Source: Flavobacteriales bacterium (lineage in GTDB: Bacteria; Bacteroidota; Bacteroidia; Flavobacteriales_D; JAHECK01). From it: 32,695 bases of DNA. A program made the position numbers and the translations under genes. How positions within the stretch are numbered: the stretch's first letter is position 1; every line of letters starts with the position of its first letter. The stretch is from the NCBI GenBank assembly GCA_024641785.1, contig JAHECK010000027.1:1-32695 (forward strand). Direction: 5' to 3'. Positions 20,656 through 24,251 of the stretch are shown in pieces. The notes below the pieces were generated by a model. That model saw only the letters and a program-made list of their open reading frames with translations. It was not told where the DNA came from and did not search any database.

Positions 20656-21671
20656 ATGGCCGGCTTCTCATTTTCACTTTACTTTCATTTATTCTGGTTT
20701 GGAGTAGCTGTTCAACTAAAAGAATTGCGCGCGTCGCTTTAAGAAGCATTGAACCCTCCTACGATTTCACACTTGATAGCGTTCCAAATGCCCCTGATTA
20801 CTCTACCAATTCAAACTGGTTCTTATTTGAAAAGGAAGGCAAAAGCGAGATGGATGTGTTCTTTATTCATCCTACAACCTATAAGAAGGCTGCTAATTGG
20901 AATCAGCCATTGGTTGATAGTATTATTTATGAAATAACTATCAGAAAATCAATTGATGTTCAGGCTCGATTATTCGATACCATCGCTAATGTGTATGCAC
21001 CCCGTTATCGTCAGGCTACTTTTTATTCTTTTTTTGATGCGGATAGCAATGGGGTCCAAGCATTGAATATTGCTTATGGTGATGTGAAAAATGCCTTCCT
21101 GTATTATATGAACCATCAAAATAAAAATAAACCCATCGTCATTGCTGGTCATAGTCAGGGTTCATATTTAGCAATGCGCTTATTAAAGGATAAGGAAGTG
21201 CAGGAAGAAATAGGAGATAAATTGGTAGTGGCCTACCTGATCGGATGGGCTGTATTGGAAACGGATCTATCGGAAATACCCTATCCTTTTTGCCAGGATT
21301 CACTGGAATTATCCTGCTTGACCAGTTGGAATTCACAAAAAGCACATTCCATTTTTTCTATGAGAGAATATGCAAATGGAGTGAAAATGTATAGTACAAA
21401 TCCTTTGAGCTGGACAATTGATGAAAATTATTATGGTCCTTCCTATAATTTAGGTGCAATGATATTAAATGGAGATAGTCTGATCTATCGTCCGCATTAT
21501 ATTGGAGCAAGAAATTATAAAGGCATTCTGGCAATTGATCGACCAAAGGAGAAAGGCACATTGAATATTAGAAGGCATAGTGGGAATTATCATATTTATG
21601 ATGTGGCTTTCTTTTATCGAAATATCCAGCAGAATGCCTTGTTGCGGAAGCGGGTGTATTTGACTAAGTAG
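20652..21671 (+). CDS. DUF3089 lipoprotein, predicted alpha/beta hydrolase
   Basis: A 339-aa protein of the DUF3089 family (alpha/beta-hydrolase fold). The frame is open upstream to 20568, but ATG 20652 is preferred: it starts a lipoprotein signal (FTLLSFILVWSSC, lipid-bearing Cys20) and overlaps the previous stop as ATGA. DUF3089 hallmarks are DVFFIHPTTY (68-77), VYAPRYRQATFYSFFD (114-129) and the nucleophile elbow AGHSQGS with Ser168. Later features include a Trp/Asn-rich segment (TSWNSQKAHSIF) and a final HIYDVAFFYRNI in which the His or Asp may complete a triad. Activity is unknown; an esterase or lipase on the outer face of the envelope is likely. Coupled to a four-helix membrane protein. 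Confidence 0.88.
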   Translation: MNGRLLIFTLLSFILVWSSCSTKRIARVALRSIEPSYDFTLDSVPNAPDYSTNSNWFLFEKEGKSEMDVFFIHPTTYKKAANWNQPLVDSIIYEITIRKSIDVQARLFDTIANVYAPRYRQATFYSFFDADSNGVQALNIAYGDVKNAFLYYMNHQNKNKPIVIAGHSQGSYLAMRLLKDKEVQEEIGDKLVVAYLIGWAVLETDLSEIPYPFCQDSLELSCLTSWNSQKAHSIFSMREYANGVKMYSTNPLSWTIDENYYGPSYNLGAMILNGDSLIYRPHYIGARNYKGILAIDRPKEKGTLNIRRHSGNYHIYDVAFFYRNIQQNALLRKRVYLTK

Positions 21672-21790
21672 GAAGTTGGAAGTGGGGAGTAAGAAACAAA
21701 AAAAACCTGTATGTCCCTGATATAGATTGATATATTAAACCTATTAAAATGGATATTATCTAAGCTATTTTATAAATCTCTTCTTTTTAT

Positions 21791-21908
21791 AACCACAATG
21801 ATACAAAGTAGGCTCTGAGTGCACTAAGAGACTTCTATAGATGAATTTAAAACTAAAAGCTTTTATAATACTTGTGACCTCAGAGCCTACTTGGCGACCT
21901 TTGTGGTT
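21791..21908. repeat. Imperfect inverted-repeat element, about 118 bp
   Basis: Left arm 21791-21828 and right arm 21871-21908 (38 bases each) are imperfect reverse complements. They start with AACCACAA, share an uninterrupted AAGTAGGCTCTGAG core, and end in CACTAAG/CTTGTGAC-type sequence. The central 42 bases are AT-rich and contain AAAAGCTTTT. The end sequence (CCTTTGTGGTT) resembles short dispersed intergenic repeats I recall from several environmental bacteria. There is no coding potential. It could fold as a long hairpin in RNA, or be a miniature mobile element; neither is proven. Confidence 0.6.
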
Positions 21909-22040
21909 AATTTGATAAAAACCATCCATTTAAACTAGTAAACTCTATTCTGGGATTGTCTATTACTTCGTACTACTCGCTCCGTTCTTCCAACCTTATA
22001 CATTTTGGACTTTTTCTATACTCGAATGCTACAACTATAA

Positions 22041-22074
22041 AACAAAAAAAAGCCCTGACATTTCTGCCAGGGCT
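22041..22074 (-). terminator. Terminator of the three-repeat T9SS cargo gene
   Basis: On the minus strand AGCCCTG (22074-22068) pairs with CAGGGCT (22057-22051), the stem extended by two further pairs past one mismatch, with a GAAA loop. A T-rich tail follows (22050-22041). It lies 20 bases after the stop at 22095. Confidence 0.85.
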
Positions 22075-22094
22075 CTTCAAATTATTTAATAATC

Positions 22095-24251
22095 TTAGTG
22101 TTGAACTACGATTCTTTTAGTAATTACTTGAGAAGCATTTTCTAATTGAATAAGGTAGATACCTTCATTAAGATCAGAAGTATTTACTTCGATCAGTCCG
22201 CTATTAACAACGCGTTGAACATTCATTACTTCTTGTCCGGCTGCATTATACACATGAAGATTAACTTCTTCATTAATGTCGTTCATAATATAAACAACAT
22301 CGTTTGCAGGGTTAGGATAGATACTTAATTGAGTATCGAAGTTCTCAGCAACAGTTAAACCGGTTTCAGCATTTTTTGCGTAGAAATCATCTACGTAAAA
22401 ATGTGAAGCTGCATCAGGAGGATAGATATCCATTACAGCTAATTGGTTTGTACCATCAGCTCCTTGAGAAGTTAAACTCCACTGCCATTCATGTACCATT
22501 TCGCCGGCTACATAGTAAGCAGCATAGTCATTGGTCATGTCAACATAAAACATAACATCGATCCATGTATCCAAGTCATAAGTAAAAGTTGCAGCATCCG
22601 CTCCACCGGCACTTAATGTCCCTGTTCCATCGCTTAGGAAATACGTTTCTAATGCCCATTGGTAAACATTGCCAACATTATCAAACTCATGCATTAAGTT
22701 CAAATATCCATTACCGTCTGCAGGAACATACATTTTCATTCCAATTTCAACAGCACCTGAAGTTAAGTTTCCAAATGGATAAACAAGGTCAGTTCCAACG
22801 CCTCCAAATAATTCCATTGAATTCTCACCACTGAAAGACATCATATCTGTAACATAGGTATCCTCACTAGTTCCGGGAGCATCACTCCAAGTTGACCAAG
22901 CTGGGTTACCAACAGCAACATATTGTCCTGAATAGAAAGCAGCACAATCTTCTACTTCGATATCATCAGCCATCATTCCAACCAATTCTTGCATATAAAA
23001 GTTATCTATATAATATGAAGGGTTAGCAGAACCTGCAGGGTAGAGATCCATTACGGCTAGTTGATTTAAACCAGCTGAGCCATTTGCATCATTTAAACTC
23101 CATTGCCAATCACCCATTTTCATTCCATTTACATAGAATTTCACATTATCATTATCCATATCGATCACATATTTGATCGTATTCCATGCATCTTCCATAT
23201 AGTCGAATGGATAATCTGTGTTTCCACCAGATTGAACTGCAGTACCATCACCGTTGAAAACGGTTTCAAGGGCCCATTGGTAAACAGCTCCATCAAAACT
23301 ATGCATTAGGTTGTAATAAGCACCCATACCTGCATCAACATAAATATCGAAAGATAATTCATAGCGTCCTTCTGTAAGGTTTCCAAAGTGATAAACAAGA
23401 TCAGTACTGGCTTCAGAAAGGTAAATAGAGTTCAGACCAGCAGCCATAGTATTAGATATTACAGCATCTTCTGCAGATCCCGGATCTTCAGACCAAGTAG
23501 TCCAAGGTGCTCCAAGGCTTAAAGCAGCAGGTGCTCCAGGCATACCGTTTTCCATTGTAGCAGCAAGCACAGATTTAGCTTCAATTCTACTAAAGGTAAC
23601 ATCATCAACATAATACTCGCAAGCTAAGCCGGCTGGAGAATAAGCAAAGAAATCAATTCCTCCTAAAGAATTCAAACCTGCATTACCAGTCGTTCCATCG
23701 ATACTCCACTGCCAACCATGAACCAATTCATTATTGATATGTAAAACTGCAGTATCTGCATCAAGTGATATGATGTAATCAATTTTAGTCCATTCACCTG
23801 TATTATAGGCAAATGGGTAGTCAGTTCCACCTAAAGAAAGGTAACCTGTACTATCATCGCTAAAGAATACATCACCACCCCATTGAACACCAGGAGTTGC
23901 TTCTTTTTGTAAATTAAAATAGCCACCCATTCCTTGAGCAACCATGAATTTTAAAGTCACTTGAAAAGTTCCTTTTTCCCATGAACCCATATCAAGAATA
24001 AGATCGGTAGAACCACCACCATCAGGACCGGTTACAATAAAACAGTTACTTCCGCTAACTGCAGTTACGGAATCGATAACAAAAGCATCTTCACCTGTTC
24101 CTGGACTGTTTGTCCATGTTGTAAAATCATCTGCTTGAACTGCCACATAATCATTTGCGGTGTAGCTGTCGAAGTTTTCAGAGATTAAATTTTGAGCGTT
24201 TAATCCAACACCCATAGCCATAACACTGGCAAATAGTAATAATTTTTTCAT
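22095..24251 (-). CDS. T9SS type A cargo with three lectin-like repeats
   Basis: A 718-aa secreted protein. It has a signal peptide (1-19, cut before Q20), three homologous units of about 170-200 residues (about 24-222, 249-420 and 432-625) and a type A T9SS sorting domain (about 641-718; SIYPNPANDVVYI, VYNAAGQEVMN, NEGIYLIQL, KRIVVQH). Each unit carries TTW or STW followed by (S/T)xxPG(T/S)xED, a central strand with YFNL/YYNL/YLNL, WQWS, and an end (F/Y)Y(V/I)D(D/N)(V/F), the layout of a concanavalin/laminin-G-like jelly roll. The repeats are Asp/Tyr/Trp-rich and may bind carbohydrate; that is inference. No enzyme domain is visible. Surface or secreted location follows from the sorting domain. 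Own terminator; no clear promoter seen in the AT-rich upstream region. Confidence 0.87.
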   Translation of the reverse strand: MKKLLLFASVMAMGVGLNAQNLISENFDSYTANDYVAVQADDFTTWTNSPGTGEDAFVIDSVTAVSGSNCFIVTGPDGGGSTDLILDMGSWEKGTFQVTLKFMVAQGMGGYFNLQKEATPGVQWGGDVFFSDDSTGYLSLGGTDYPFAYNTGEWTKIDYIISLDADTAVLHINNELVHGWQWSIDGTTGNAGLNSLGGIDFFAYSPAGLACEYYVDDVTFSRIEAKSVLAATMENGMPGAPAALSLGAPWTTWSEDPGSAEDAVISNTMAAGLNSIYLSEASTDLVYHFGNLTEGRYELSFDIYVDAGMGAYYNLMHSFDGAVYQWALETVFNGDGTAVQSGGNTDYPFDYMEDAWNTIKYVIDMDNDNVKFYVNGMKMGDWQWSLNDANGSAGLNQLAVMDLYPAGSANPSYYIDNFYMQELVGMMADDIEVEDCAAFYSGQYVAVGNPAWSTWSDAPGTSEDTYVTDMMSFSGENSMELFGGVGTDLVYPFGNLTSGAVEIGMKMYVPADGNGYLNLMHEFDNVGNVYQWALETYFLSDGTGTLSAGGADAATFTYDLDTWIDVMFYVDMTNDYAAYYVAGEMVHEWQWSLTSQGADGTNQLAVMDIYPPDAASHFYVDDFYAKNAETGLTVAENFDTQLSIYPNPANDVVYIMNDINEEVNLHVYNAAGQEVMNVQRVVNSGLIEVNTSDLNEGIYLIQLENASQVITKRIVVQH

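Follow-up and report, generated by a model that had tools for sequence, protein, structure and literature searches.

An inverted-array element between two convergent genes

The window, by which we denote the whole stretch of 32,695 nucleotides that was analysed, harbours an imperfect inverted repeat of 120 bp at positions 21790-21909, located between two convergent open reading frames (ORFs). The element starts 119 bases past the end of the plus-strand ORF at 21671 and stops 186 bases before the end of the minus-strand ORF at 22095. Direct reading of the sequence together with folding confirmed the imperfect inverted-repeat element between convergent genes described in an initial annotation; the arms, for which the outer limits 21791 and 21908 had been given, are real, but the true ends at 21790 and 21909 lie one base further out on each side.

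The left arm (21790-21828, plus strand) consists of the degenerate units TAACCACAATG / ATACAAAG / TAGGCTCTGAG / TGCACTAAG, which end at positions 21800, 21808, 21819, and 21828, respectively, and the right arm (21871-21909, minus strand) is the inverted copy of this array, reading TAACCACAAAG / GTCGCCAAG / TAGGCTCTGAG / GTCACAAG. Both arms, about 39 bases long each and in inverted order, are thus arrays of degenerate CRCARAG units, with outer TAACCAC ends and CRCARAG-like units spaced approximately 8-11 bp apart. The 42-base AT-rich centre reported in the initial annotation is present at 21829-21870; this segment is not conserved among 17 aligned copies of the element.

Between the outermost parts of the arms, TAACCACAA (21790-21798) and TTGTGGTTA (21901-21909), 9 of 9 bases pair. 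Further inwards, the perfect 14-bp stem AAGTAGGCTCTGAG is formed by 21806-21819 on the plus strand and 21879-21892 on the minus strand (14/14 paired) and can be extended to 19 bases at 89% pairing, the outer and inner stems being split by an unpaired internal loop with 7 bases on one side and 8 on the other. The RNA fold predicted for positions 21785-21914 has a free energy of -42.4 kcal/mol compared to a shuffle mean of -20.5 (z -6.74), and none of 200 shuffles folded as low.

As stated in the initial annotation, which held that the element is not a normal terminator, no T run follows it, and a reading as an intrinsic terminator, with a stem and a T run at the gene end, was therefore rejected. 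The single terminator-like site found between 21500 and 22200 is located at 22047-22078 on the minus strand; it is an intrinsic-terminator-like site of the neighbouring minus-strand gene, is separate from the element, and is retained in the sister species G001, where the orthologous locus has no element.

The element belongs to a dispersed family of intergenic repeats

Bacterial intergenic regions often contain short palindromic repeats, many of which have not been traced to a source. A BLAST search of the element's own draft genome (3.31 Mb, 96% complete, 6% contamination) revealed relatives on many contigs, the closest full-length copy being 81% identical to the window element. Altogether 19 two-armed copies of 88-148 bp as cut, including that of the window, were extracted. 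The check for further genome copies that had been proposed initially thus gave a positive answer and, by copy number, the element is not the single copy lacking relatives that the proposal had allowed for. Besides these 19, further copies were read on contigs C128 and C192, a decayed one on C38, and two half copies on C194 and C183. None of the 19 copies lies within an ORF of more than approximately 80 codons; one (L010) overlaps with the beginning of a mechanical 91-codon ORF. For 18 copies an ORF was called on either side; these neighbouring ORFs are tandem in 9, divergent in 5, and convergent in 4 cases, and the copies are not tied to convergent genes.

Conservation in the alignment of 17 copies extends over the arms but not over the centre. 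The arm consensus TAACCACAAAGACACAAAGTAGGCTCAAAGNTCACAAAGA, common to both arms, is a row of CRCARAG-like units. The arm model R2 is based on sequence only and was built from 35 arms of the gene-less copies in the own genome; the underlying alignment A2 omits both arms of L023, one of which is damaged, as well as the damaged arm of L039. It yielded 44 arm matches at E <= 0.05 in the own genome, with a best score of 45.8 bits. In the window, R2 matches positions 21790-21831 (plus strand, 43.0 bits) and 21867-21909 (minus strand, 40.2 bits), scores that are not independent since R2 was built from an alignment containing both arms. In the sister species G001 at least 31 arm matches were obtained from 32 candidates scored and, among 199 genomes searched with the arm model, 19 besides the own genome and G001 carry one to four matches each. 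The remark in the initial annotation that similar ends are dispersed in other bacteria is borne out. Near a GIY-YIG gene on contig C58, a lone weak arm was read and judged to be a chance match.

In two copies, L023 on contig C82 and L073 on contig C152 of G001, one arm is apparently broken by approximately 30 bases of unrelated sequence. Inspection of the flanks of L021-L040 by eye indicates that subsets of copies share 25-55 bases beyond the arms, for example ATCCAGGAAAGTG...TTTTCTT before the left arm. The boundaries of the mobile unit may therefore differ from those of the arms, and there may be subfamilies as well as a longer mobile unit.

The orthologous site in a sister species is devoid of the element

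The comparison with G001 covers the window's own site. G001 retains both neighbours of the window element, and the spacing between the matched flanks is 147 bp as opposed to 402 bp in the own genome. The orthologous stretch lacks the element, and the same terminator sequence adjoins. No target-site duplication was evident by eye in the flanks of the copies, and the G001 site is too diverged to fix one or to set the exact insertion point of the window copy. The elements at orthologous sites shared with G001 (L008/L299 and L010/L296) resemble each other no more than randomly chosen pairs do and consequently give no information on age. The G001 site carries a fragment reading TTCGACAGGCTCA..., which by our reading resembles another repeat family.

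The stable RNA hairpin considered in the initial annotation was not borne out as a conserved structure. Over 17 copies, the stem positions were paired in 84.9% of cells compared to 85.3% in shuffles, the covariation score was 0.082 as compared to 0.083, and pairs changed on both sides were found six times against a shuffle mean of 5.5. A search of the window against Rfam at the gathering threshold returned two tRNAs only and no family for the element. A conserved structured RNA was thus rejected, as neither compensatory changes nor a match to a known family were found. The conservation of the arms to one consensus together with the lack of covariation points to recognition of the DNA sequence rather than of an RNA fold.

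Arms of this type flank GxxExxY genes in other genomes

A pattern search with TTAACCACAAAG plus a second unit across 199 genomes of the order matched seven genomes, the own genome included, and in two of the others a GxxExxY gene was read beside the array. GxxExxY (TIGR04256 / PF13366, PDDEXK_3) is a small PD-(D/E)XK nuclease-like protein. For the order, the test set comprised 30 GxxExxY genes, namely 29 top Pfam matches and L062, which had first been met via the DNA pattern; 31 of 31 loci were located and 30 were kept (L095 was dropped owing to a short flank). An inverted-repeat flank score of at least 12 was reached at 25 of the 30 genes compared to 2 of 56 shifted control intervals. Correctly oriented CRCARAG motifs were present on both sides of 18 of the 30 GxxExxY genes, as opposed to none of 31 IVP genes and 1 of 19 GIY-YIG genes. 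In total, 125 motifs at the GxxExxY genes of the order were correctly and 41 oppositely oriented, and the reversed motif occurred 21 times in all.

A second set consisted of 80 named GxxExxY loci, the best 80 of 584 confirmed; being nearest to a query alignment headed by two proteins found next to such arms, it is biased towards this spelling. The loci are mainly from Bacteroidota; the rest include records labelled Treponema, Planctomycetota, Acidobacteria, Chloroherpeton, Melioribacter, and Rhizobium, although such draft labels may be wrong. Among the 77 loci kept for their usable flanks, the inverted-repeat score was reached at 57 genes compared to 8 of 138 shifted intervals, and oriented CRCARAG motifs were found on at least one side of 74 and on both sides of 55 genes. 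The 77 genes have 345 correctly and 106 oppositely oriented CRCARAG motifs, compared to 43 correctly oriented ones at the 138 shifted intervals, and 15 reversed motifs in all orientations. As the shifted controls are largely coding DNA, they serve only as an approximate baseline for inverted repeats; comparing gene families provides the stronger control. When flanks from different loci were mispaired, the median score was 10.0 as compared to 15.5, and a score of 12 was still reached in 28% of the pairs, because the arms share the motif.

Applied to the 80 named loci, R2 gave 36 matches at 21 loci; by reading, 27 of these are situated no more than 300 bp from the gene and have the expected orientation, 8 are oriented oppositely, and 1 is located farther away. 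Six of the eight opposite matches fall in L172 and L176, and in L172 the paired matches represent whole, separate hairpins beside the gene. Clear matches on both sides of the gene were observed in L189, L192, L201, L202, L209, and L215; L172 would qualify as well, were its matches not parts of separate hairpins. In contrast, 30 IVP and 30 GIY-YIG loci (181,578 bp) yielded no R2 match. The 30 PF13366 loci of the order gave seven weaker matches in three loci; most of the units there have arrays spelled in other ways, many of them with CGCAGAG. Arm loci fetched outside the genus numbered 26, of which 4, representing three elements, have a GxxExxY gene in the fetched stretch and 22 do not.

One example, L189 from a Bacteroidetes draft, is a 457-bp unit in which the arms abut the GxxExxY ORF. 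Its left arm scores 42.5 bits with R2, which is within the range of the own-genome arms, and runs into the ATG of the ORF; the right arm comes after the stop codon, so that the ORF takes the position of the AT-rich centre. The arms of the window element align with those of L189, L163, L200, L201, L202, L205, L209, and L062. The window element is thus of the same design as a GxxExxY unit, with 42 bases replacing the gene. The window copy, with its centre of only 42 bp, contains no GxxExxY gene and is accordingly a gene-less relative rather than a complete unit. A search of the literature, which covered few subscription journals and no bioRxiv preprints and in which absence therefore counts for little, returned no published link between GxxExxY and such repeats. 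At L077 (contig C10 of G072, 165220 and 165919) two GxxExxY genes with equal scores are separated by about 700 bp and surrounded by repeated hairpins, so that a unit seems to have been duplicated in tandem.

The spacing of the motif was determined for 480 exact CRCARAG motifs in 222 GxxExxY flanks. Neighbouring motifs are 9, 10, or 11 bases apart in 119 cases, with a second peak at 19-23 bases (60 cases) and a small rise at 30-31 bases (9 cases), these distances corresponding approximately to one, two, and three helical turns. We infer from this helical spacing that a protein binds the units on one face of the DNA.

The GxxExxY protein and its remnants in the own genome

All 15 aligned GxxExxY sequences share the residues D69, E79, and K81, in agreement with the PD-(D/E)XK pattern. 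An AlphaFold2 model with a pLDDT of 92.9 has SSO0001, a Cas4, as its nearest fold (Foldseek E 1.3e-3; Z 9.8, rmsd 3.4 over 100 residues), and many other restriction-type nucleases rank below it in the fold search. The predicted structure thus suggests a nuclease-like protein, this fold being common among nucleases and in itself no proof of function or target. A profile search against the PDB returned no solved chain matching GxxExxY, PADLOC gave no match for the GxxExxY protein P0001, and PHROGs one marginal match.

No intact GxxExxY gene was detected in the drafts of the own genome and of G001, which are 96% and 91% complete; the gene missing from the own genome could sit in its unassembled part. 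Two decayed GxxExxY genes are present in the own genome, L047 on contig C154 and L048 on contig C131, each between inverted arms. These arms are spelled TTCACGCAAAG and AAACCGCAAAAAG, respectively, and R2 does not match the arms of either pseudogene. Since no intact gene was detected and the arms of the pseudogenes are unlike R2, the mover of the own-genome copies is not at hand. In addition, as the copies are diverged, the family is probably now immobile in the own genome, and we take it to be old and to have no mover resident there.

Arms and gene come or go together at the L078 site

The flanks of one gene-bearing unit, L078 of genome G126, were sought in 14 genomes from the same genus. Ten of these, comprising G126 itself and nine relatives, have a collinear site; in each of the remaining four, the flanks lie apart or one of them is missing. 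Among the ten collinear congeners, solely G126 carries the GxxExxY unit at this site. Its arms run from 1320 to 1917, whereas in the closer relatives the homology of the left flank breaks off at 1310-1318; that of the right flank resumes at 1917-1919 in three of these and at 1963-1995 in others. This coincidence of the unit boundaries with the breaks in homology indicates that arms and gene come or go together and that the site is reused.

As read from the translation, the relatives L287 and L288 have a GIY-YIG-like ORF between differently spelled arms at this position, and the other relatives contain gene-less hairpins or other sequence, the interior of L290 having been read in part. Across the nine congeners (L283-L291) a different repeat element or ORF thus occupies the L078 site in different species, which is possibly a hot spot for such units. 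Transposition was not observed.

A probable gene-less member of a family of GxxExxY units

The window element is, in our judgement, probably a gene-less (non-autonomous, MITE-like) and most likely now immobile member of a mobile family that includes GxxExxY units. Its kinship with these units appears highly probable, and the GxxExxY protein is a tentative candidate for their mover, a role to which we would give somewhat less than an even chance. A complete unit would comprise a GxxExxY gene between two inverted arrays of degenerate CRCARAG units, the outer ends of which often read TTAACCRC...GYGGTTAA. A protein, most simply an oligomer of GxxExxY, may recognise the repeats along one face of the DNA helix, and the same protein may join the two arms and cut. 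Host repair or replication could then copy the unit, whether the gene is present or absent, to another intergenic site. Of the three guesses made initially, the miniature element fares best in light of the dispersed copies, the empty orthologous site, and the arms common to gene-bearing units; a protein-binding dyad is a possible part of the model, because the CRCARAG units are approximately one helical turn apart. Tying the repeat family to the widespread GxxExxY gene renders both testable: the protein family gains a candidate DNA target and the repeats gain a candidate maker.

The solo inverted arrays could also spread alone, with a homing-like GxxExxY nuclease cutting an array and being copied in during repair, so that the window copy would be an unoccupied landing site. 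We consider this unlikely. The nuclease-like fold, the occurrence of an identical arm type with and without the gene, the 22 of 26 arm loci outside the genus without GxxExxY in the fetched stretch, and the presence of different elements at one intergenic site in different congeners would all fit. However, the spread of the solo copies is left unexplained, no gene-less copy of the same arms is seen in the nine relatives at the L078 site (with L290 read partly in its interior), and the L078 site leans towards a joint gain of arms and gene where no arms had been.

Far less probable is a host regulatory element, that is, a terminator, an mRNA-stabilising hairpin, or a nucleoid-protein site kept for a local function. 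Although the strong fold, the intergenic position of the examined copies, and helically spaced units suited to protein binding could be accommodated, the orthologous site is devoid of the element while the terminator-like site is conserved there, the copies are independent of convergent genes, covariation is absent, and elsewhere the same arms flank a nuclease-like gene. Slightly weaker still is the case for a miniature element derived from an ordinary insertion sequence of the DDE type, with which the short terminal inverted repeats, the dispersed copies, and the empty site would agree. Among the arm matches of the own genome no arm pair was seen around a larger gene, the enclosed gene at the six named loci, which were chosen for that gene, is GxxExxY, and internal arrays of degenerate units are, to our knowledge, not usual in DDE-type terminal repeats. 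We regard it as hardly credible that the window element is a REP-type element moved by a RAYT, a Y1/HUH tyrosine transposase, via recognition of a single-stranded hairpin: the element is indeed a small dispersed intergenic palindrome, its arms hold GTAG inside AAGTAGGC, and one Y1_Tnp gene is located on contig C193 of the own genome, but this sole Y1_Tnp locus (L049) has no arm match and bears other repeats, CGACCCCGGCGGGGTCG, the GTAG lies within the paired stem and not unpaired at the hairpin foot, relatives have GAAG or GGAG in its place, and covariation is absent, so that this explanation was already disfavoured. The Y1_Tnp gene at L049 is surrounded by CGACCCCGGCGGGGTCG and AATCCTCCGGATTC repeats, which are probably the RAYT's own REPs. 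An integron attC-like site was also considered and set aside since the copies are dispersed.

Comparison with known systems

The window element has dispersed copies, common terminal inverted repeats, and no gene, as is typical of a MITE. Like a MITE, it is short, gene-less, and intergenic, and its inverted ends are common to gene-bearing relatives; these ends match those of GxxExxY units, the enzyme being a putative mover. In contrast to a MITE, the gene of the larger relatives encodes the nuclease-like GxxExxY protein and not a known transposase, the arms are arrays of degenerate repeats, and no target-site duplication was seen. In other genomes, arms of this family enclose the gene itself, TIGR04256 / PF13366, which is lacking from the window copy.

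REPs and REPtrons, as well as TIRtrons, with their RAYT or TIRYT enzymes, are small intergenic palindromes that occur solo or flanking the enzyme gene (PMC3733652). The window family likewise consists of small intergenic palindromes with solo and gene-flanking copies but is associated with another enzyme family and lacks a tag at the hairpin foot. Moreover, its arms are approximately 40 bp of CRCARAG-like units, and the RAYT of its own genome has other repeats.

The intervening sequences of 23S rRNA with an S23p/IVP four-helix-bundle gene are located in rRNA and excised by RNase III; they resemble the present units in that a small gene is placed between complementary ends, and they have been called selfish (PMC4990558). 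Unlike them, the window family resides in intergenic DNA, and the dispersed IVP genes studied here have inverted arrays that are spelled differently.

Similar arrays surround IVP and GIY-YIG genes

Of 35 IVP (four-helix-bundle, PF05635) loci, 34 were located and 31 kept. Inverted arrays flank 24 of these 31, as compared to 3 of 60 controls, and consist of degenerate units with a period of 6-8 bp, the spelling of which varies by locus (L041-L045 on contigs C76, C183, C161, C194, and C192 of the own genome; L104-L133). An IVP gene as the partner of the window family was rejected, as the IVP arrays of the own genome are differently spelled and R2 found none of its arms at the 30 IVP loci; the R2 matches inside L044 belong to a solo copy (C194:1247-1336) about 1.4 kb away from the IVP gene. 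For small GIY-YIG genes (L312-L341), 22 of 30 loci were located and 19 kept, those with long ORFs or short flanks being dropped; the inverted-arm score was reached at 10 of the 19 compared to 2 of 34 controls. Several of the GIY-YIG arms, which are also seen in L287 and L288, are TGTCATTTCGA-like, and a few are terminator-like hairpins on each side.

In this sample of top-scoring loci, gene type and array spelling go together, and the similar plan around IVP and GIY-YIG genes may suggest a general link. With due reservation, we propose a distinct class of mobile DNA, the existence of which seems to us not far short of an even matter: one short gene between inverted arrays of degenerate 6-11-bp units, the gene type setting the spelling. 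Its spellings would be CRCARAG for GxxExxY, 6-8-bp units for IVP, and TGTCATTTCGA-like arms for GIY-YIG. If this holds true, gene-less arrays would be the trail of such units, which would account for many hairpin repeats in Bacteroidota and elsewhere among bacteria that have so far lacked an explanation and provide a source of REP-like repeats separate from RAYTs.

Within the window, a short GGAAGTTGGAAGTGGGG array is located at the stop codon of the plus-strand ORF (21671-21690) and CTTCCAACC is found inverted near 21990; this stretch looks like the remnant of an IVP-type array around the window element.
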